Origin: Alicyclobacillaceae bacterium
GTDB taxonomy: Bacteria > Bacillota > Bacilli > Kyrpidiales > Kyrpidiaceae
Length of the DNA stretch: 64,000 bases
NCBI GenBank assembly: GCA_029961045.1
Contig: JASBVN010000022.1
Location: 1 to 64,000, forward strand
Reading direction: 5' to 3'
Below, piece by piece: positions 47,201-58,322 of the stretch; the stretch's first letter is position 1; each line of letters opens with the position of its first letter. Both the position numbers and the translations under genes were made by a program. The notes under the pieces were generated by a model. It was not told the DNA's origin, did not search any database, and was given only the letters and a program-made list of their open reading frames with translations.

Positions 47201-47430
47201 CCCATCACCTCTCGCTCCCAGCATACCGGGAGGTGGCGAAACAATCAATACTGAAATTTTCCGGGAGGGTGGAACAAATTTTTGTATCCGCTCGGAAAAA
47301 GACGAAAAATATCGAATGGATGAGAAGGAAAATTGATCCTTTTGGTCGAAAGAGATACACAGATGTCAAAGGAGGGGACGGTTAGACAGACCTATATTTT
47401 TACAAAAGATATGCGGCGGAGGTGGAGGGC

Positions 47431-49680
47431 TTGGAATTGTTTGCGACTCCTTGGTTGGCCTGGCTTCAAAACCCCTTTGAACGGCCGGTGTCTCTCCGGT
47501 GCAAGCCGGAAGATTTAGTTTGGCAAGATCCGGTGACGGGAACCTGGTTTTGCGTGGAGGGTCGGGATTACGAGGAATATCTGCAGGCCGCAAAAGCGTG
47601 GTTGCGCTCCAGGGAGGTAGGGCCGCAACGTTGGGACCGCCGCTTGCCCTTCGGCGAACATCCGGGAGGCCGCGTGGCCGGAGATTCCCGGGCCGCCGTC
47701 GGAACCGCTCTGCCTTACCCCCGGCCGTTGACGGCAGAAGAAGCTGTAAAGCTTGCGGCCGGCCGGGGGAAGCGGACAGACTCCTCACCGGAAAGCCCGT
47801 TGTTGAGAACTCGCCTGAGCGATTTCCTGTATCTGAGGGCCGCACTGTTTTTCGCCCTGTTCTATCGGGAAGTCCGGGCACGGTGGAGGGATGTCCGGCA
47901 CCGCCTGTTCCGGGATCTTCGCCCGGTGCTCGACCCCTTTGACGCGGAAGCGCTGGGGGCAGTGGAGGAGTTGCTGGTTTCCGGTCGAGTCCCTCCGTAC
48001 TTGGAAGGACGTCGCTTTCTGTTCGTCAAAGGAGGAGCGGTGCGGATCAAACGCTATTATTTGGAAACTGCCGGTATTCAAGAGATTCGCGGCGGTTCTC
48101 GACTGTTGGACGAATTGAATGGGGAGCGGCTTTTCCGCTGGTTGGAGACTCTGGGTCCGGAACGGGGATGGACTCCCGAGAGTGTCGTATACAGCGGCGG
48201 CGGCCGTACCCTTTTGGTGCTTCCCCTTGAGGCGAGAGGCCCGGAAGGGGAACCGCCGGAATTGGCGATGGAAACCCTTTATGCACGGGTGACGATCAAC
48301 GCCGAATGTGCCTTTGTGTCGGAAGAAGTTCCTGTTGAGGCCTGGACGGCCGGGCAATTTTCATACTGGATGTCCCGGTTGGAAACGCACATCGTGGAAC
48401 GTCAGATGTGCCGGCCGCCCGTATTCTACTCCGAGCCGGATGACACCCCGGACTTGAGCCGCACGCTGAACTACTGCAACCCCGAACCATATCCGGCTCA
48501 AGACGTCCCGGTGCAAAACCGGTTTTGCGGTCTTTGCCGGTTTCGCCCCGCTTTCCGGTTGATCCGGCGGGCCGAAGGGGATGTTCCGGTGTGCCGGCCC
48601 TGCTATCACCGGGCGGTCGCCGGAGCGTCGAAGGTCAAAATCGACCGGCAAGCGGAACAGATTCTGGACGAGGTCCGGCCTTTTCTCGGCACAAAAGTTC
48701 ATTCGGTCCGCCCGGTGGTTCCCAACTCCCTGGTCGATCTGGGAGAACAGGTGGCTCTGGTGTACGGGGACGGAAATAACCTTGGGCAGTACGTCAAACA
48801 AATGGATACGCCCGCCAAGCTCCGGTATTTTTCCGACTTGATCGACAGCGTCACTCGGGCGGCGGCTTGTCTGACCTTGGTGGAATTGCTCCCCGACTTG
48901 AGGTTCGAAATGATAGCGATGGCCGGAGACGACCTCTTTTTTGTTGCTCCCGCTGAAGCGGCTTTAGAAGGAGTGCCGCGGATCGTGGAGCGATTCGAAA
49001 GGGCCCTCACCCGGTACAAGCCGGCGGAAAGCATGGTGGCTGCCGAAGAAACCATGACCTTGTCGGTGGGAGTGGCGCTGGGTGCGAACGATCAAGCCTT
49101 TTTAAGGCTGTTTACGACGGCCGAAGAATTGCTTAAATCGGCGAAATCCGCAAAGAAAAAAGAGGCGTTGCCCGGGGGAACGATCGATTATTTGTACCTG
49201 CAAAGCGACGTTCCTTACGCGGGAAGGCTGGAAGATTACCGGTCGTTGCAGCGTTCCCATACAGAATTGTCTTCGAAGGGCGAGATTCGGAAGCATTTCT
49301 ACGCCCGGCCGTATACCGCAGGGGGATTTTTCCAACTATTGGAATTGATTCGAAGCTTGGACCGGTTGACTGGGGCGGGATTGGTCCATCACATGTGTCT
49401 CGCCGCGGAGGCGATGACGGCCTTAGAAAGCGATCTTTACGCGAAATATCTTCTCTTCCGGGATTCGGTTCAACAGAGCCGAACGGAGGTGATCCAGCTG
49501 CTCAATCGGGTTAGTTCAATTGACGGCAAGGAGCGTTCCGAAGGCGTGTTATGGTGGCGAAAAGGGGAGGAGTATTACTCCCTTTGGCACGATGTGCTCG
49601 AGTTGTGGGGAATTTTGGGTGTGAGGAAGAAGCTGGAGGAGCGGGCTGTCGCGTTCCAAGGGCGAGGGGATGTGCCGTGA
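47431..49680 (+). CDS. cas10: Type III CRISPR Cas10, HD-less, AGDD palm
   Basis: The large subunit of a type III effector, about 749 residues. No N-terminal HD nuclease motif is visible. Landmarks: IQEIRGGSRLLDELN (about 215-230), a zinc ribbon starting CGLC at about 365 and CRPC at about 388, first palm motif VYGDGNNLGQYV (about 445), and the second palm motif MAGDDLFF (about 496-503), where GGDD is replaced by AGDD. The catalytic Asp pair is kept, so cyclic oligoadenylate synthesis is plausible. I favour TTG 47431 with GGAGG eight bases upstream; GTG 47422 is the alternative. It heads a nine-gene operon. Confidence 0.93.
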   Translation: MELFATPWLAWLQNPFERPVSLRCKPEDLVWQDPVTGTWFCVEGRDYEEYLQAAKAWLRSREVGPQRWDRRLPFGEHPGGRVAGDSRAAVGTALPYPRPLTAEEAVKLAAGRGKRTDSSPESPLLRTRLSDFLYLRAALFFALFYREVRARWRDVRHRLFRDLRPVLDPFDAEALGAVEELLVSGRVPPYLEGRRFLFVKGGAVRIKRYYLETAGIQEIRGGSRLLDELNGERLFRWLETLGPERGWTPESVVYSGGGRTLLVLPLEARGPEGEPPELAMETLYARVTINAECAFVSEEVPVEAWTAGQFSYWMSRLETHIVERQMCRPPVFYSEPDDTPDLSRTLNYCNPEPYPAQDVPVQNRFCGLCRFRPAFRLIRRAEGDVPVCRPCYHRAVAGASKVKIDRQAEQILDEVRPFLGTKVHSVRPVVPNSLVDLGEQVALVYGDGNNLGQYVKQMDTPAKLRYFSDLIDSVTRAAACLTLVELLPDLRFEMIAMAGDDLFFVAPAEAALEGVPRIVERFERALTRYKPAESMVAAEETMTLSVGVALGANDQAFLRLFTTAEELLKSAKSAKKKEALPGGTIDYLYLQSDVPYAGRLEDYRSLQRSHTELSSKGEIRKHFYARPYTAGGFFQLLELIRSLDRLTGAGLVHHMCLAAEAMTALESDLYAKYLLFRDSVQQSRTEVIQLLNRVSSIDGKERSEGVLWWRKGEEYYSLWHDVLELWGILGVRKKLEERAVAFQGRGDVP

Positions 49681-50384
49681 ACAGCAGAGGACCGAAGTCC
49701 TTGGTTGAATGGCGTTGGATTCTCCGGCCGGAGACCGCCTGGTCCGTGCGCGGCCCCGGGCAGGGGAGGGAGTCCGGTGGCCGTCCGCTGGTGGATTGGC
49801 GCGGTCGGCCCTATGTACCCGGTTCCACGATGAAAGGAAAAATTCGGGACAGTTTCCGGCGGCTGTTCAGCGCCCCGGAATGGGGGGAGGAGGAAGAAAA
49901 GGCTGCCGGATCGACCTCGTTTTCCTTGCAAAAATGGCGCGCGATGGAGCTGTACTGTTTTGGGGTTCCCGGGACCCGTCCCGGACGCTTGTACGTGGAC
50001 GACAGCTATCTGTCGGAAGAGAACGCAGGGGCCGGGCAGTGGTATGGACAGCGCCATCGGGTGGCGGTCAACCGGCGCCTAGGTGTGGTGAAGGACGCCT
50101 TCTTGGCGTCCGAAACGGTGGTGGAGGCGGGATGGTCCTTTGAAGGGGGTATGAGCCTGTACACCGGTAACGAGGAATTGGTCGCCGCCCTGACGTTGGC
50201 CGTGTTGGATGTGGATCAAATCGGCGGCGGGCGTACGGTGGGGCGCGGTCGGGTGTCGTGGGGCCTGGCCGAAGGGGAAGGAACCAGCAGGCTCACTGTC
50301 ACGGTCGACGGGATTCCATGGGGGCCGGCCGCTTCCATTCCGACTTTGAGGGAATGGGCCTTAAATGCGTTTTTCCGCGACTGA
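49677..50384 (+). CDS. Cas7-like RAMP protein, first copy
   Basis: A 235-residue RAMP-superfamily protein. Family marks are RPYVPGSTMKGKIRDSFRRL, then YCFGVPGTRPGRLYVDDSYL (equivalent to the Cas7 LFG region) and the glycine-rich GGGRTVGRGRVSWG near the end. It starts at a GTG that overlaps the cas10 stop codon as GTGA, so the two are translationally coupled. Its size and gene position suggest a backbone subunit close to Cas10, perhaps in the Csm4/Cmr3-proximal place. It lacks the clear catalytic Asp segment of Csm3. Confidence 0.8.
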   Translation: MNSRGPKSLVEWRWILRPETAWSVRGPGQGRESGGRPLVDWRGRPYVPGSTMKGKIRDSFRRLFSAPEWGEEEEKAAGSTSFSLQKWRAMELYCFGVPGTRPGRLYVDDSYLSEENAGAGQWYGQRHRVAVNRRLGVVKDAFLASETVVEAGWSFEGGMSLYTGNEELVAALTLAVLDVDQIGGGRTVGRGRVSWGLAEGEGTSRLTVTVDGIPWGPAASIPTLREWALNAFFRD

Positions 50385-50408
50385 GGTCCCCGCAAAGGAG
50401 AGATAGCC

Positions 50409-51689
50409 TTGTACCGCTGGTGGAGGATTTCTCTGAGACCCTTGTCCCCGTTCTTGGTGGCGGGCCGGCGAATTACGCCGAACTATTATGAGACGCTCGA
50501 TTACATACCCGGCCGGATTCTCAAAGGGGCGGTGGCCCGGGCCATCCTCGAATCCTACGGCGGCACTCCCGAAGACGGATCGGCTGCGGCTACTTGGGTC
50601 GGTCCGGAATTGGATGAATCTCTGTGCCGTCCCGAATGGCGGAACTGGGTCCGGTCGTTTTCCGAGATTCTCTTTTCCGACGCGACGCCCTTTGGAGCCG
50701 GACGTCCCCCGAGTACCTTGCTGGTGTGTAAGAACGATCCGTCCCATCCCCCGGTGGACGACCTTCCCGATCGCTTTCGGTGGCGTGTGGGGGGAGAGCG
50801 ACCGGATGATGGACGGGTTCCGGAAAACCGGGACCGGAGTTGTCCGGTTTGCCGGGGACGCTTGGAGCGCTGGAAAGAAGGATGGAGATTTCCCGACGGT
50901 CATGAGCGGGCCGGACATAGTGCCCACGTTCAGAAACGGGTATTCACCCGGGTGGAATTGGACGATTGGCGACAAACTCATCGGGACGGACACCTGTTTA
51001 GCCTGGCGGCTGGTATACCGGAGGCGGCGGTGGAAGGGAAGGCGGAACCGCTGATCTTTCAAGGATGGATCCGGGCTCCCGAGGATGCGGATCTCCAGCT
51101 TCCGAAGGGGATGCGATTGCGGGTGGGCGCCTACGTCGGTGTCGGTTTGGGGCTGATGGAGGTGGAGGTGCGTCCGGAGGGATCCGGGGAGAGAAGGGGG
51201 TGGACGGATCGCGGGGATTGGGTGGATGCGACCGGCGACCGGTCATCGATTCCTGTGGTGCTGCAAGGAGATTGTCTATACGCGGCAGGCTGTGGCACGG
51301 AGCGGATCACCAGTGTGGCGGAGGACCGGGCCGCTTATGCCGCTTGGTGGAAGCAGAGGCCGTCGGCGATACCGGCCCCCGATTCCCTGACGGTCCTGTT
51401 TGCGGCCGTCCAGTACGAATCGCGATACCCCTTCGTGGCCGGACAACCGGGGGTCAGGTCGATGCGGCCGCTGTGGTATTGGCTGGGCGGCAGCCTGTTT
51501 GTCTTTGCCGTGTCGGATCCCTCCGAAGCTCCGGTCTTGGTCCAGTGGGTGGAGGCCCTGTGCCGGGATGGGGTCCGGTCGGATGTGGAGGTGCCGGGCG
51601 CGCGATTTTGGGATCGAGGGGAATTCGAAGAAACATCCGGGGGAACGGAAAGGGCGTGGACGCCGGTCCGGATCTGGTCGTCACGATGA
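50409..51689 (+). CDS. csx10: Csx10-like RAMP protein
   Basis: A 426-residue RAMP protein. The N-terminus has the Csx10 hallmark TLDYIPGRILKGAVARAILE after RISLRPLSPFLVAGRR. Cysteines near residue 102 (CKNDPSH) and a later CPVC look like a zinc site. A glycine-rich element VGAYVGVGLGLMEVEV follows, and a second domain fills the C-terminal half. Csx10 is the Cas5-type subunit that defines subtype III-D, where it likely caps the crRNA 5' end. It starts 24 bases after the first Cas7-like gene. Confidence 0.8.
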   Translation: MYRWWRISLRPLSPFLVAGRRITPNYYETLDYIPGRILKGAVARAILESYGGTPEDGSAAATWVGPELDESLCRPEWRNWVRSFSEILFSDATPFGAGRPPSTLLVCKNDPSHPPVDDLPDRFRWRVGGERPDDGRVPENRDRSCPVCRGRLERWKEGWRFPDGHERAGHSAHVQKRVFTRVELDDWRQTHRDGHLFSLAAGIPEAAVEGKAEPLIFQGWIRAPEDADLQLPKGMRLRVGAYVGVGLGLMEVEVRPEGSGERRGWTDRGDWVDATGDRSSIPVVLQGDCLYAAGCGTERITSVAEDRAAYAAWWKQRPSAIPAPDSLTVLFAAVQYESRYPFVAGQPGVRSMRPLWYWLGGSLFVFAVSDPSEAPVLVQWVEALCRDGVRSDVEVPGARFWDRGEFEETSGGTERAWTPVRIWSSR

Positions 51690-51702
51690 GGGGGGAAGCC
51701 GT

Positions 51703-52209
51703 ATGAACGGAAATGTAACTGCGGAGCTGCAGCGGCAGGTGGATTGGTTGGTCCAGAAGGCGGAAGAGTTTGGGACCTATGTTATGGAAGCGCTGCAATT
51801 GAATCCGGGCAGCCGGGATGGGAGCGAAGGCGGGAAGTCCGGTCGCAACGCGGAGCGGGCAAACGATTTCGGAAAATCTCAGATCGAAAACCTGCTTGCG
51901 GCCATGAATCACATCACGTCCCTTGCGGAATTGGAATTGTTTGTTCGGTATCAAATGGGGCGTGACGACAAGCGGCAGGGGTGGGCCAAGGTTGGAGATC
52001 GGTTCCTCTCGATTCTTCAGGAAATCCAGCATCGCGGTGGGGAGGACTTATCCGAACAGGATAGGCGGCAATTGCATCGTTTGATGGTCAACCGGTTCCT
52101 GCTCTACTGGAAATGGCAGCACACGTATTTGAGCAACCGGAAACCGGCAGGATCTGCAACTCCGGCATGGCGTTCTTCCGGGAGGCCCCAGGGGAGGTAT
52201 GGCCGGTGA
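51703..52209 (+). CDS. Csm2/Cas11-like small subunit
   Basis: A 168-residue, mainly helical protein. The segment GKSQIENLLAAMNHITSLAE resembles the Csm2/Cas11 SQIR-type helix, followed by ELFVRYQMGRDDKRQGWAKV and a basic C-terminal tail. Cas11 subunits line the belly of the type III complex and contact the target RNA. The ATG at 51703 follows GGGGGAAG. It overlaps the following RAMP gene by four bases (GTGA). The assignment rests on pattern and position, as small subunits diverge fast. Confidence 0.72.
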   Translation: MNGNVTAELQRQVDWLVQKAEEFGTYVMEALQLNPGSRDGSEGGKSGRNAERANDFGKSQIENLLAAMNHITSLAELELFVRYQMGRDDKRQGWAKVGDRFLSILQEIQHRGGEDLSEQDRRQLHRLMVNRFLLYWKWQHTYLSNRKPAGSATPAWRSSGRPQGRYGR

Positions 52210-53078
52210 GCCTCATGCACGATCGAATCTATAACGTGTGGGTAGTCCGGGGAAGTTTGGAACTCCAGACCCCTCTGCATGTGGGAGCGGGACAGCGCGG
52301 TCTGATGAGCCTGGATGCTCCCGTATTGAAATGGCCGGATGGGCGCCCGGTGGTGCCGGGTTCCTCGTTGAAAGGCGTCTTACGTTCATTTTTGGAAACC
52401 GTGGGCCAAAACGAAGGGTTGCGCAACTGGTTGTCACCCGGACGTCCGCCGGTCTGCATTGTGACGGAAGAACCTTGTGGCAAACAATTTCGGAACAAGA
52501 AAGCCAGGGACGAAGTGGTGGAGCGAGCGGTCCGGTCCGGAACGAACGGGACGCCGGAGGAGGCTCGGGTAAAAGGAGAGCGGGAATTAGCCCGAGAGAT
52601 CTACGAAACCCTCTGTCCGGTGTGCCGCCTATTTGGCAACCAACTATTTGCCGGAAAAGTTTCGGTGTCTGATCTGGTGCCCGAAGAGAAGCCCGAAGCC
52701 GGATGGTTCGATGTACGGGACGGGGTGGGCATCGATCGGGATACCCGAACGGCTCGCAGAGGAGTGAAATATGATTTTGAAATTGTGAATCCCGGCGTGG
52801 TGTTTCCTCTGACGGTGCGCGCCAAAAATCTGGAAGATGATGAAAAGGCCTGGTTGTTGTTTGCCTTGGAAGCCCTGCGGCGCGGGGAACTGCTGTTGGG
52901 CGGGAAAAAATCCCGGGGACTCGGAGCGGTGCGGGGCGTAGGGACATGGCGTATCTCGCGTTTGGAACCGAAAGGCCCGGAGGACTTCCTCCTCCGGTAT
53001 CTGGGCCGGGCCGAAGACGAGGACTATGAACGGGTACTCGATGAAATCATGGGGAACTACACGGGGGCGGGGAGGTGA
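52206..53078 (+). CDS. Csm3/Cas7-like RAMP, likely target-RNA slicer
   Basis: A 290-residue RAMP of Csm3 type. SLDAPVLKWPDGRPVVPGSS with following LKGVLRSFLE matches the loop that carries the catalytic Asp of Csm3 backbone subunits. The family Cys-LFG motif is LCPVCRLFGNQLFAGKVSVS, and the C-terminal glycine-rich GGKKSRGLGAVRG is present. If the Asp is functional, it cuts the bound target RNA at six-base intervals. The GTG at 52206 has GGGGAGG upstream. An ATG at 52215 is possible. Confidence 0.82.
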   Translation: MSLMHDRIYNVWVVRGSLELQTPLHVGAGQRGLMSLDAPVLKWPDGRPVVPGSSLKGVLRSFLETVGQNEGLRNWLSPGRPPVCIVTEEPCGKQFRNKKARDEVVERAVRSGTNGTPEEARVKGERELAREIYETLCPVCRLFGNQLFAGKVSVSDLVPEEKPEAGWFDVRDGVGIDRDTRTARRGVKYDFEIVNPGVVFPLTVRAKNLEDDEKAWLLFALEALRRGELLLGGKKSRGLGAVRGVGTWRISRLEPKGPEDFLLRYLGRAEDEDYERVLDEIMGNYTGAGR

Positions 53079-53083
53079 CGGGC

Positions 53084-53956
53084 ATGTTTCGAGCTTTGCA
53101 GATTGAGGCCGTGATCCATTATGCCCTCGTGCCCGAAACCCCGATTTCGCTGCGGCGGGGCGGCACAAATCCGGTGGATCCGGGGATGCCGGACGGTCAG
53201 GTCGTTAAACACTGGAAGGAAGGGCGATGGGTGCCGGTGATTCCCGGGTCATCGCTCAAGGGCGCGTTTCGCAGCCGCGCCGAACAGATGCTCAAAGGAA
53301 TGGGCCTCGACGTGGACGACGTTTTTGACAAAAACAGCGGGAGCCACAAGGCGAAGAGCGACGGAAACAAAAGGGGAGAAGACCTCTATTTCAAGCAATG
53401 TGCGGCCAGCCGGCTGTTTGGTTCCTTAGCCCTTGGGAGCCGGATTTTCTTTGAGGATGCCGTGCCCCGGGATCCGTCGGCCGTACGCCTGGGATTGAGG
53501 GAAGGGGTGGGCATTAGCCGGCTTACCGGAGGACCGGCGCCGGGGGTTCTCTACACGTACGAGGTCGTGGAAGCCGGAGAGTTTGTGGGGCGGATCGTGG
53601 TACAGAATTTTGAATTGTGGCATCTGAAGTTGCTGGCGGCCCTGTTGGAGGATCTCCATACCGGCCATCTGCGCCTGGGCGCGGCGACGTCCCGCGGACT
53701 TGGGAGAGTCCGGTTGGTGCCGGAATGGGTGAGTTTGGCGTGTCTCGATTATCGCAACGGCCCCAATCCGGGCACCCGTCCTTTGGAAGATGTATTCGGC
53801 ACTCTCTCGGCACGGGAATTGGACTGGAAGGCGGATTTGTTCCGGGCGAGGGCGGAGGTGCCGGGTCTGGAGGCGGTTTTGGATTTCTGCCGGGGGTTGC
53901 CCGGACCGTCCCCGCAGACGATCCGGCGCATCCCGGTGAATACGGAGAGGCGGTGA
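53084..53956 (+). CDS. Cas7-like RAMP protein
   Basis: A 290-residue RAMP. It has VPVIPGSSLKGAFRSRAEQM, the LFG region CAASRLFGSLALGSRIFFED, a Csm3-like GVGISRLTGGPAPGVLY segment and the terminal glycine-rich GAATSRGLGRVRLV. The Cys-containing pair seen in the neighbouring copies is reduced to one Cys. ATG 53084 has GGGGAGG eight bases upstream; a GTG at 53075 overlapping the previous stop sits inside that ribosome site. It is another backbone subunit, possibly in the Csm5 position. Confidence 0.8.
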   Translation: MFRALQIEAVIHYALVPETPISLRRGGTNPVDPGMPDGQVVKHWKEGRWVPVIPGSSLKGAFRSRAEQMLKGMGLDVDDVFDKNSGSHKAKSDGNKRGEDLYFKQCAASRLFGSLALGSRIFFEDAVPRDPSAVRLGLREGVGISRLTGGPAPGVLYTYEVVEAGEFVGRIVVQNFELWHLKLLAALLEDLHTGHLRLGAATSRGLGRVRLVPEWVSLACLDYRNGPNPGTRPLEDVFGTLSARELDWKADLFRARAEVPGLEAVLDFCRGLPGPSPQTIRRIPVNTERR

Positions 53957-54957
53957 GGATCGTGGCTCCCTTTGGCTTTTATCCTGTGGAGGGTGTTCCG
54001 GAACGCCAGCCTCCCAGACCTCGAAATGTCCTGAATCCAAATCTGCTCCACGGGAGGTTGAAGGTGTCTCTGACCACACTGACTCCTTTGGTCGTGGGAA
54101 CCGGAGCCTATGAACTCCGGGAAGACGACTTCGTCCGGGGCATCTGCCGGGAAGGCGGAGTTCCCGTCGTGCCGGGATCGACTGTCAAAGGGGTCATCCG
54201 CAGTTATGTAGAACTGCTGTCGAAGTCTTGCGTTTTGCAGATCGAAAAAGGACAGCCGGCCCCTTCATGCAAAACGAACTTTCGTGCGGGCTCTCCGGAT
54301 GCCGCTGTGTGCCCGTCCTGCCAAATTTTTGGGGTCGTCGGACAGAAAGGCGCCCTCCGGAGCCTGGTTTCTGTAGGAACGTTTCGTCCTCACCGGACAC
54401 CGGTGCCGGAAGAGGTGATCCGGTTGCCCCAGTTTTACCGCCCGAGAAAAATTCGCCGGGAAGGCGAAAAGGTTTTTCGCAAGGTGTACCGCCACGGCAA
54501 CCCGAAATACATTTTGAATGCGGTTTCCACCTGGAAAAACCGGAGGCCCGACCGGTACGCCGCCGTGTCGGACGGCGTGACTTTTATAGGTTTGATAGAT
54601 TTTGTAAATCTCGAACCGGAGGAGTTGGGGTTGCTGGCGCTGGGAATGGGGGCGGTTCCCTCCCGGAAGTTTCAAATCAAGATGGGGTACGGCAAGCCGG
54701 CTTTTTTGGGCAGCGTCCAAATGGAGATTTTGGACATTCAGCCCCTGAGCAACCTTGTTTGGAACGGCAAAGAGTGGACGAGGGAACACCTCTGGGAGTG
54801 GGCGGAGGCTTATGTTCGGCGGGATCCCTGGATCGGGCGGAGAGCGGAAGAGGTGTGCCGGCAACAGCAGTTTGATGAGGCCTTTCGGCAGACACCGCGG
54901 GAACATTCCTATCTCGGATGGGATCTTGTGGGAGGGGTGTATGGATGGGAACCCTGA
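53953..54957 (+). CDS. Cas7-like RAMP protein, last copy
   Basis: A 334-residue RAMP. It contains VPVVPGSTVKGVIRSYVELL, a Cys-rich CPSCQIFGVVGQKGALRSLV motif and a lysine-rich loop (RPRKIRREGEKVFRKVYRHG) that is probably RNA-contacting. The C-terminal GKPAFLGSVQMEILDIQP replaces the usual glycine-rich loop. The GTG start overlaps the preceding stop codon as GTGA; another GTG at 53962 is possible. The N-terminal 35 residues are Pro-rich. It overlaps the next gene by 13 bases. Confidence 0.8.
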   Translation: MRIVAPFGFYPVEGVPERQPPRPRNVLNPNLLHGRLKVSLTTLTPLVVGTGAYELREDDFVRGICREGGVPVVPGSTVKGVIRSYVELLSKSCVLQIEKGQPAPSCKTNFRAGSPDAAVCPSCQIFGVVGQKGALRSLVSVGTFRPHRTPVPEEVIRLPQFYRPRKIRREGEKVFRKVYRHGNPKYILNAVSTWKNRRPDRYAAVSDGVTFIGLIDFVNLEPEELGLLALGMGAVPSRKFQIKMGYGKPAFLGSVQMEILDIQPLSNLVWNGKEWTREHLWEWAEAYVRRDPWIGRRAEEVCRQQQFDEAFRQTPREHSYLGWDLVGGVYGWEP

Positions 54958-55466
54958 CGGATTCCCAGCGAGAGGCGATTCACCGGTTGTTGGTTCGTCT
55001 CTTTCGCGATCGACCGGCGACCGATCGAGAAAAGGGTGTGTCCGGCCGGGTGGAGCCGGGCCGCACGACGGCCGAGTCCGGCGGAAATCCAGGCAAAAAT
55101 CAGGCGGTGTCGGCCTCTCCGTCGATGATCCAACGGGCGCTGGAGCTATGGAAAATAGTGGAAGAGGACATGGCTTCCCGGTTGTCTTCTCAAGACGCGG
55201 AGAGGGGAATGAATTACGTGGTCCGGGCAACTCTTGCCGGCCCGCAGAGAGTGCCTCCTCTGCGGGATCATCCCGAGGGACAGCGGCTTCAACGGCGGGT
55301 TGAACATATTCGTGGGATTCTTTTTCGGATCGGCAAGAAGGAGCAGTGGGAAGCCGTGTCCCGGTTGGTGGAGCGGCGGTGGAGGCCTCAAGAAATCACG
55401 TATGCGGAAGCGGTTTATTTTTTATCCTGGCTGCGCCGTTTGATACCGAAGGACAGGGGGGAGTAG
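54945..55466 (+). CDS. Unrecognised protein of the CRISPR operon
   Basis: I do not recognise this 173-residue protein. The N-terminal helix TDSQREAIHRLLVRLFRDRP is followed by a Gly/Ser-rich linker (about residues 25-60) and a helical C-terminal domain (ALELWKIVEEDMASRLSS, then EAVSRLVERRWRPQEITYAE). ATG 54945 has GGGAGGGG seven bases upstream. Its tight overlap with the RAMP gene and its place before the CARF gene argue for a role in the complex or in signalling. It may correspond to the unnamed small genes seen in III-D loci. Confidence 0.65.
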   Translation: MGTLTDSQREAIHRLLVRLFRDRPATDREKGVSGRVEPGRTTAESGGNPGKNQAVSASPSMIQRALELWKIVEEDMASRLSSQDAERGMNYVVRATLAGPQRVPPLRDHPEGQRLQRRVEHIRGILFRIGKKEQWEAVSRLVERRWRPQEITYAEAVYFLSWLRRLIPKDRGE

Positions 55467-55523
55467 GTCTCATTCTCGTTCGGGCGCGCAGCACAGAGCC
55501 CATGATGCGTGACGGGGGTGCCG

Positions 55524-56636
55524 ATGGTGCAGGTGATCGTTTCTACGGTGGGGACTTCGCTTCTGCGGAACATGAAAGTTCCGCACGACGCGATCGCTCA
55601 GGTACCCGTAGGGGAAGAAACCGGTGAACAGATGCGTGCAATGGAGAAGGTTCGAACAGAACTCTTAGCTCGAATGGCGGAAAACGGGAACGACATGACG
55701 TCGTGGAGTGCCGAAATTCACAGCCTCTCGCGGATTGGAGTGTCCGAGGGAGACCGGTTGATCTTTTTGACAACGGAAACTTTGGATGGTTATCTGTGCG
55801 GAGACGTGTTGCATGAGTTTCTGAAGAAACGATGGGGTGTGGACGGCAGCGTACATATGGTGAAGGGGCTTCAAGTGCAAAACGGGAAACGCTTTGCAGA
55901 TGAAGGAATCGATAATTTGGCGGATCTGGTCTTGAGAATTTTGGAACGCTACCCGCCGGAGGCGTACAAGGTCATTTTGAATCCGACCGGAGGGTTCAAA
56001 GCGGTGGTGCCGTATATGACCCTGATCGGGCTGGCGTTTGGTCTTCCCATGAAATACATCTATGAACAGTCTACCGAGTTGATTACCTTGCCGGCGGCTC
56101 CGGTTTCTTTAAATGTAGAGCACCTCGGCGGATTGGGTAGTCTGGTTTACGATTTGGCCAATACGTATTTGGCGGAGAAGGATGTCGCGGAGCATCTCGG
56201 CATTTCCGTGTACGAGCTTCGAAATAAATATAAGGATGTTCTGGTTTGGCAAGAGGAGGGGATGGTCAGTTTATCCGGACTCGCTCGAGTCCTGTACAGG
56301 CGCCTGGTGCGGGAACGCGGCGATGACATCCGGGTATCGCGGACCGTAAAAAAGTTATTCAGGAAAAATCAGTCCTGGGAAAGTGTGTTTCAATCTTATT
56401 TTGAGAAAATGCGCGATCCTGCGTATCGAACGAAGCATCTCCACAATCAGGTTCAAAACGAACATGTGGACTTGGATTGTTTGAAGCCGGGCAATGTTTC
56501 CGAACGGATTTTTTATTATGTGGAGGACCATACGGTATATATTTGCTATGTGGACCGGCACGACGAATATGAACGTCTGCTGAAAACCGGGAACTTGAAA
56601 TTGACAAAAGCGTCGTATCAAAACGATTTCGATTAA
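55524..56636 (+). CDS. CARF-HTH-RelE ribonuclease, Cami1-like
   Basis: A 370-residue three-part protein. The N-terminal CARF domain (about residues 1-185) has IVSTVGTSLL and the diagnostic NPTGGFKAVVPYMTLIG at about 153. A helix-turn-helix follows (DVAEHLGISVYELRNKYKDV, about 220-240). The C-terminal part (about 285-365) resembles RelE: ERIFYYVEDHTVYICYVDRH followed by DEYERLL. CARF-RelE fusions (Cami1) are cyclic-oligoadenylate-activated, ribosome-dependent mRNA interferases. Here it would be the ancillary effector of the Cas10 operon. The RelE assignment is by pattern and should be confirmed structurally. Confidence 0.8.
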   Translation: MVQVIVSTVGTSLLRNMKVPHDAIAQVPVGEETGEQMRAMEKVRTELLARMAENGNDMTSWSAEIHSLSRIGVSEGDRLIFLTTETLDGYLCGDVLHEFLKKRWGVDGSVHMVKGLQVQNGKRFADEGIDNLADLVLRILERYPPEAYKVILNPTGGFKAVVPYMTLIGLAFGLPMKYIYEQSTELITLPAAPVSLNVEHLGGLGSLVYDLANTYLAEKDVAEHLGISVYELRNKYKDVLVWQEEGMVSLSGLARVLYRRLVRERGDDIRVSRTVKKLFRKNQSWESVFQSYFEKMRDPAYRTKHLHNQVQNEHVDLDCLKPGNVSERIFYYVEDHTVYICYVDRHDEYERLLKTGNLKLTKASYQNDFD

Positions 56637-56720: not shown

Positions 56721-56750
56721 CGGCGCGGCCTTCCTTACTGGGCCGCGCCG
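56721..56750 (-). terminator. Hairpin overlapping the transglutaminase-like gene end
   Basis: CGGCGCGGCC/GGCCGCGCCG (56721-56730 with 56741-56750), a perfect 10-bp stem that spans the stop codon at 56735-56737. T tract absent. Confidence 0.4.
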
Positions 56751-58117
56751 AAGGTTTCCGGAATGTGGGATTCTTTGAAAGCCAGGGTTTCGGTCAGGTA
56801 TTCGTTGGAGAGGGCGGTGTTGTTCCGGCTTCCGAACTGATTCCACGTCGGGTCGATGGCGATCCACGCCGAGCCGTCCCAAACTCTCACCCATTCGTGA
56901 GGGCCGGAGGTGGGACCGGCGGCTTCGCCGGATACCGTTTCGGCGGGGACGCCCACCGACCGCAGCAGGGCCGCCGTGACCTCGGCGAACTGTTGGCAGA
57001 CCCCGCTTCCGCTCCGCCAGGCCTCTTCGGCGTTTTTCCAAACCGGGCGCCCGGCGTAAAAACTGTCCCAATCGTACCGGAGTTTGCCGGACACGAAATT
57101 GGCCACGGCGGCGATGCCGCTGCGGACCGAGGGGGCGTTGTCCAGAAGGACGGACGCCGTCGCCGCAAACTCCGGATTTTTCCGGTAATCCACCCACGCG
57201 GAAGCGAGGCGCGCGAGGTCCACGGGGGACAGCGCGGGGGCGTTGGAGCGGATCGGGTATGCCACGTCTGTTTTCCACCAGCCGTTTTGGGTTTTCAACT
57301 GGCGGAAAAAGTCGGGGACGGCATACACCATTAGATCGCCCTGGTAGGGAACCCGCAGGGAAGAACCGAATACGCCCTTGGAATTGACCGGCAGGGTGTA
57401 ATTCCAGGATTTCGATCCATCGCGGGAAGAGATGACGACGGTGACGGACTCGACTCCGCCGGACGCCCGGCCGATGACCGGCAGCCAACCGCCGGAGGGC
57501 TGGTAGGGCCAAACGGTGAGGTTGGCGCCCCGCCGCGGAATCGCCGGCGGCAGATCGGCGTTCAAAGGCCGGATGCCCGCCTGATCGGGGGTGGGTGCCG
57601 GCCGGCTGTTCTTCGCTTTTAAGTCCTCGAACCCGATGATGAGGACGAGCGGAACGCTGTACGTACCCCGGGAACGCGCCTGCACCGTGTAAATGCCCGG
57701 TTTGGACGCGGTGAAAGTGGCCCAAGCCGCCTTTCGTTGTTCTATGGTCCACTGGATATACCGGGGGCCCGGCCGGACGGCGGCGTCGGGGCTGTTGACA
57801 AACCAAGCGATGTCCGGCCCGACGTCCCGGGTCGTGGAATAAGCCCACAGATAGAGGGTTTGCCCGGGTTTGGCCGACAGGATGGGCGGCCCCTGGTCGC
57901 TGAGGCGGGCATCGGTGCTTGCGACGAGATACAGGTCGTTTCCGGCCCGGAGCCAGAAGGCGGTGTCGTCCGCGGCGGACGGGGCGGACGGGGCGGCGGA
58001 GGCGGTCGAAACGGGAGAGGCGGCAAATGCCGGCGAAAGGGAGATCGCGGAGCCGGCTCCCACCGTCAACGCGAGCAACGCCGCGGCCATTTGAGTCAAA
58101 AACCGGAATCGTTTCAT
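56735..58117 (-). CDS. Exported transglutaminase-like protein
   Basis: A 460-residue secreted protein. A signal peptide of about 31 residues (RFLTQMAAALLALTVGAGSA then a cleavage-like AFAA) is followed by an Ala/Ser/Pro linker, two beta-rich domains (about 55-250) and a C-terminal transglutaminase-like domain. That domain has the Cys in GSGVCQQFAEVTAALLRSVG, the His in GPHEWVRVW and the Asp in IAIDPTWNQFG, a Cys-His-Asp triad. Relatives act as cysteine peptidases or in wall-related crosslinking. ATG 58117 has GGAGG upstream. It appears monocistronic. Confidence 0.88.
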   Translation of the reverse strand: MKRFRFLTQMAAALLALTVGAGSAISLSPAFAASPVSTASAAPSAPSAADDTAFWLRAGNDLYLVASTDARLSDQGPPILSAKPGQTLYLWAYSTTRDVGPDIAWFVNSPDAAVRPGPRYIQWTIEQRKAAWATFTASKPGIYTVQARSRGTYSVPLVLIIGFEDLKAKNSRPAPTPDQAGIRPLNADLPPAIPRRGANLTVWPYQPSGGWLPVIGRASGGVESVTVVISSRDGSKSWNYTLPVNSKGVFGSSLRVPYQGDLMVYAVPDFFRQLKTQNGWWKTDVAYPIRSNAPALSPVDLARLASAWVDYRKNPEFAATASVLLDNAPSVRSGIAAVANFVSGKLRYDWDSFYAGRPVWKNAEEAWRSGSGVCQQFAEVTAALLRSVGVPAETVSGEAAGPTSGPHEWVRVWDGSAWIAIDPTWNQFGSRNNTALSNEYLTETLAFKESHIPETFGAAQ

Positions 58118-58273
58118 GGGATATTCCTCCTTCGACGCGGACCGCGGGCTTCTCCGGCTTTCCGCCGGCCCTGCGCCGACCATGTCGAACGCGTTCACAT
58201 GAAAATTTCGTCTGCAAGGGGAAAAATTCCTGCGGAAGGGCGGCATAAAGAGGAATGGGCGACCGCACGGAAA

Positions 58274-58298
58274 GCCCCGGGGCGGGAAGCCCCGGGGC
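58274..58298 (-). terminator. Probable terminator of the mtn operon
   Basis: GCCCCGGGG/CCCCGGGGC (58274-58282 with 58290-58298), loop of seven, followed on the minus strand by CTTTCC. It lies 24 bases after the mtnD stop codon. Confidence 0.55.
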
Positions 58299-58322
58299 AC
58301 CGTCCATCGCCGGTCCTGCCGG

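Follow-up and report, generated by a model that had tools for sequence, protein, structure and literature searches.

Known CARF-RelE Effectors and Type III-D Complexes

The closest described relative of the effector considered here is the CARF-RelE protein Cami1 (PDB 8phb and 8phj; Mogila et al., 2023, Science, as cited in PMC11980606), which has been described as cA4-activated (PMC11229360) and for which ring-nuclease activity has been reported (PMC12409355). A Cami1 relative encoded on an Allochromatium tepidum plasmid adjoins a III-B (Cmr) operon, whereas the operon described below is assigned to subtype III-D. The effector complex of subtype III-D1 (reviewed in PMC12669027; PDB 8bmw contains its small subunit) is encoded by separate cas10, csx10 and cas11 genes and several cas7 genes, and has an HD-less Cas10; an HD domain is found in only 3% of III-D Cas10 proteins (PMC11229360).

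The analyzed stretch of 64,000 nucleotides from an Alicyclobacillaceae bacterium (hereafter, the window) belongs to a contig of 66,104 bases and contains nine co-directional genes on the + strand, from position 47422 or 47431 to 56636, which very likely encode a subtype III-D CRISPR effector with a Cami1-type CARF-RelE RNase as its ancillary effector. The gene order is cas10, p2 (Cas7-like), csx10, cas11, p5, p6, p7, p8 and p9 (CARF-RelE), with Spo0M on one side of the operon and transglutaminase-like genes on the other. The earlier note described a one-strand operon of nine genes, and both this layout and the names given to the genes hold. The GTGA overlaps that it reported are present at four of the eight junctions (cas10/p2, cas11/p5, p5/p6, and p6/p7), but p7 and p8 overlap by 13 nt, and short gaps separate p2 from csx10, csx10 from cas11, and p8 from p9. 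Profile searches placed eight genes, all except p8, directly in families, with matches far beyond chance (2e-42 for Cas10; 4e-15 to 1e-28 for the RAMP genes, with one at 1e-11; 4e-55 for CARF_RelE), and p8 was placed via its relatives.

Subunits of the III-D Effector Complex

The cas10 gene (47422..49680 from a GTG start, or from a TTG at 47431) encodes a 752-aa protein with palm domains and a zinc ribbon (PADLOC Cas10, 2.2e-42; Pfam Cas10-Cmr2_palm2, 1.6e-12), for which a phmmer search of the PDB returned no match. No HD family was detected in it by Pfam, and the motif alignment revealed no N-terminal HD nuclease motif, the only HD dipeptide being located near the C-terminus. The cyclase motif is AGDD in this protein and in its closest relative, from a complete genome of the same family (G041), and GGDD in most other relatives; AGDD is one of the cyclase variants occurring in loci with known effectors (PMC11229360).

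The csx10 gene (50409..51689, 426 aa) encodes a divergent Csx10-type Cas5, which matches PADLOC Cas5_IIId at 4.4e-13 and the NCBIfam Csx10 model TIGR02674 at 1.7e-12, the latter with 47 bits, below the curated NCBI cut-off of 177. Its scores against the III-D models (4e-13 and 2e-12) are clearly better than those against Cmr3 (7e-4) and a generic RAMP model (0.05). The product of cas11 (51703..52209, 168 aa) is a III-D type small subunit (PADLOC Csm2, 5e-10; III-D small-subunit models from 3.9e-9), and its family profile weakly matches the III-D small subunit in 8bmw (E 0.007).

The four Cas7-like RAMP proteins comprise p2 of the Csm3/Cas7 III-D type (49677..50384, 235 aa; Pfam RAMPs, 4.2e-15; PADLOC Csm3, 2.4e-17), two members of the Csx7 family, p5 (52206..53078, 290 aa) and p6 (53075..53956, 293 aa), that match TIGR02581 above its cut-off (5.1e-42 and 7.4e-35, respectively), and p7 (53953..54957, 334 aa), a TIGR03986-like terminal Cas7 (TIGR03986, 3.2e-27, below cut-off; PADLOC Csm3, 2e-29). 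In the loop alignments, the catalytic-loop aspartate is kept in p5 and p6, p2 is devoid of it, and p7 has no such residue conserved across relatives. The p5 copies of two related loci (L010 and L012) carry VGN or IGN at the catalytic-loop position and no aspartate, which is present in the window copy.

The combination of csx10, a palm/cyclase Cas10 without HD, a Cas11 of III-D type and multiple Csm3/Csx7-like Cas7 subunits encoded individually agrees with the earlier assignment to subtype III-D on the basis of Csx10 and HD-less Cas10. Subtype III-B was rejected given that Csx10 is far better matched than Cmr3 and that Cmr1 is absent, and the III-E/III-I fusions were rejected since every subunit is a separate gene. 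In comparison with the III-D1 complex, the operon shares the separate subunit genes and the HD-less Cas10, but additionally carries the small gene p8 downstream of its final cas7 gene and has no recognised csx19; none of its genes matched csx19 in profile searches, and csx19 is often present in III-D, although not defining. Since p5 and p6 retain the loop aspartate, and Cas10 has AGDD and no HD, the complex is expected to cleave target RNA and to signal, but not to cut DNA by means of Cas10.

The p8 gene (54945..55466) encodes a small protein of 173 aa with predicted helical structure. The earlier note treated it as an unknown gene of the operon; it is indeed present there, but it belongs to the core operon and is conserved in relatives. 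Counterparts were found at the same place in nine loci (L007, L009, L010, L012, L051, L055, and L142-L144); none of the examined close relatives of this operon with the Bacillota-type gene order lacked one. The two clostridial counterparts match the PADLOC III-D small-subunit model PDLC01486 (4.7e-46 and 7.2e-37) and the L012 copy does so weakly, whereas the window and G041 copies have no match to the PADLOC III-D small-subunit models. Direct profile comparison of p8 with Cas11 gave nothing, a direct comparison showed it to be unlike Synechocystis Csx19, and searches against PDB profiles and PHROGs, as well as a fold search with its all-helical, low-confidence AF2 model, yielded nothing convincing, so that the PADLOC scan of the relatives' copies is the sole family lead. 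On these sequence data, p8 is a conserved operon member in this III-D branch, and synteny and transitive similarity suggest that it is probably a second small-subunit-type protein.

Cami1-Like CARF-RelE Effector

The last gene, p9, encodes a 372-aa CARF7-RelE protein (55518..56636; PADLOC CARF_RelE, 3.6e-55), for which a GTG start at 55518 or an ATG start at 55524 is more likely than one at 55509. The assignment of p9 as a Cami1-like CARF-RelE is corroborated by both sequence and predicted fold. A sequence search of the PDB matched residues 51-359 to Cami1 (8phb, 1.4e-29), and the four best Foldseek matches of the AlphaFold2 model (pLDDT 83) are Cami1 chains (8phj/8phb, 3e-23 to 5e-22), followed by CARF ring nucleases. 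The predicted C-terminal part has a RelE fold, which RelE toxins match more weakly than Cami1 does. The N-terminal CARF domain is recognized by PF09651 (5.4e-28) and CARF7 models, and by Foldseek similarity to Sis0811 and SSO1393.

In an alignment of 12 sequences (numbering from 55524), His307, Lys321 and Arg328 of the RelE domain and Ser12 and Lys159 of the CARF domain are invariant, the latter pair corresponding to S12/K169 of the ring nuclease Sis0811, and the histidine of the HDEY motif aligns with the position at which 8phj, the entry of Cami1 bound to the ribosome, differs in having Ala. Thus, p9 and Cami1 share domain order, fold, RelE-domain motif residues and the CARF ring-nuclease Ser/Lys, at about 26% identity in the structural alignment. 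The identity to Cami1 and other CARF-RelE proteins is about 26-33%, and p9 forms a long branch in the tree; such divergence would be expected if this CARF-RelE responded to another ligand or acted on another target. However, the near full-length Cami1 match and the conserved CARF and RelE motif residues make this very unlikely.

Proposed Mechanism

The gene content and order, predicted domain fold and conserved motif residues allow a mechanism to be proposed by homology. By inference from the respective families, a complex of Cas10, Csx10, Cas7 and Cas11 subunits loaded with crRNA would pair with RNA from an invader, cleavage of the target RNA would be carried out by its Cas7 subunits p5 and p6, and the activated Cas10, with its palm cyclase and no HD nuclease, would produce a cyclic oligoadenylate, probably cA4. 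As in Cami1, binding of cA4 to the CARF dimer of p9 would switch on the RelE domain, which, with the protein bound to the ribosomal stalk, would cut mRNA in the ribosomal A site and bring translation to a halt. Since the ring-nuclease Ser and Lys are kept, the CARF domain of p9 probably also degrades cA4, making the effector self-limiting. The earlier note proposed abortive translation arrest rather than DNA cutting. The HD-less Cas10 fits the part on DNA cutting, but p5 and p6 retain the aspartate that serves to cleave target RNA. An abortive outcome is only one possibility, since conservation of the ring-nuclease residues points to a response that limits itself.

Related Operons and Probable Effector Exchange

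Among 400 genomes of the class, five including that of the window have a Csx10 match. The complete G041 genome encodes the eight core genes (locus L007) in an unchanged order and with 48-68% identity; however, its effector is Csx1, a CARF-HEPN protein encoded, like Cas6, on the opposite strand beside p8. The G041 locus also differs from the window in being flanked by a CRISPR array on either side and in having cas6 and a neighbouring type I-A operon. In G041, L007:1473-14352 and L008 form a compact CRISPR island, with further arrays of a second repeat type nearby. A counterpart of the transglutaminase-like gene (56735-58300 in the window) also lies within about 6 kb of the G041 III-D operon in the other relative orientation, in a rearranged neighbourhood.

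Other loci show further effector variants. The G149 and G182 genomes have another, longer CARF-type protein after p8 (Csx1-like by eye) and Cas6 upstream of cas10, and in G029 (L009:16426-19667) the III-D operon is accompanied by another CARF-RelE and a CARF-HEPN Csx1-Csx20 (ring nuclease) fusion, both divergent from cas10. The identical nine-gene order ending in p7-p8-CARF-RelE was found in two genomes of the same phylum (G644 and G667; L142/L143), but their CARF-RelE proteins best fit another PADLOC subfamily (PDLC01934). Clostridium acetireducens (L051) and Caloramator australicus (L055) likewise combine a III-D operon with CARF-RelE, which in contrast to the window is encoded upstream of cas10, with an array adjoining in the latter species; in addition, four cyanobacterial loci have CARF-RelE inside a III-D operon. 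The C. acetireducens locus encodes a weakly Cas6-like protein (L051:11156-12163, 1e-10) between CARF-RelE and cas10, besides a clear Cas6 at 476-1384.

The pairing of III-D with CARF-RelE is therefore recurrent, not new, and the present case is an ordinary but well-preserved one. In phylogenetic trees, the window Cas10 groups with that of G041 with full support, whereas its CARF-RelE forms a long branch, separate from those of other III-D-linked loci; since the neighbouring effector in G041 is Csx1, the effector has probably been exchanged around a stable III-D complex. The presence of CARF-RelE where the nearest relative has Csx1, with the III-D complex unchanged, supports the plug-in view of type III effectors.

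CRISPR Arrays, cas6 and Adaptation Genes

As previously noted, the window contains no CRISPR array, cas1, cas2 or cas6. In the whole assembly, which is 79.6% complete, neither cas1 nor cas2 was found, and cas6 was likewise not found by three tests, one of which was positive in three relatives. A genome-wide search for array repeats with the 22-nt core of a relative's repeat and the generic core GTTTCMATYCC, which covers repeats of these two types and would miss others, gave 21 isolated matches and no cluster. Among four genomes of the family, cas2 is present in both complete ones (G041 and G021) and in neither incomplete assembly (G000 and G057), which suggests that incomplete assemblies of this kind may miss CRISPR loci. 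The separation of the operon from arrays is a fact locally, and its description as lacking an array is secure only at that scale. The earlier conclusion that crRNAs must come from elsewhere is too strong, given the incompleteness of the assembly and the flanking arrays and cas6 in a complete close relative.

A rearrangement could have removed flanking arrays and cas6, leaving a decoupled or decaying operon that is now inactive or borrows crRNAs. The arrangement in G041, where cas6 is located about 1.5-3 kb from the operon, the position of the window operon directly between Spo0M and transglutaminase-like genes in a rearranged gene order, and the lack of cas1, cas2, cas6 and relative-type repeats in the assembly are consistent with such a history. 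However, all nine reading frames are intact with their motifs conserved, and hence there is no sign of decay, while the incomplete recovery of the genome, with the same cas2 pattern in its family, weakens the argument from absence. We consider a remnant of this kind possible but rather unlikely. It is less probable still that arrays and cas6 were truly lost and that selection maintains the III-D complex and the RNase it directs to ribosomes as an orphan signalling complex supplied with guides from another source. The system would be entirely ordinary if the species had cas6 together with arrays whose repeats resemble GTTTCAATCCCC(A/T)ACC(A/T)CGGGTCT.
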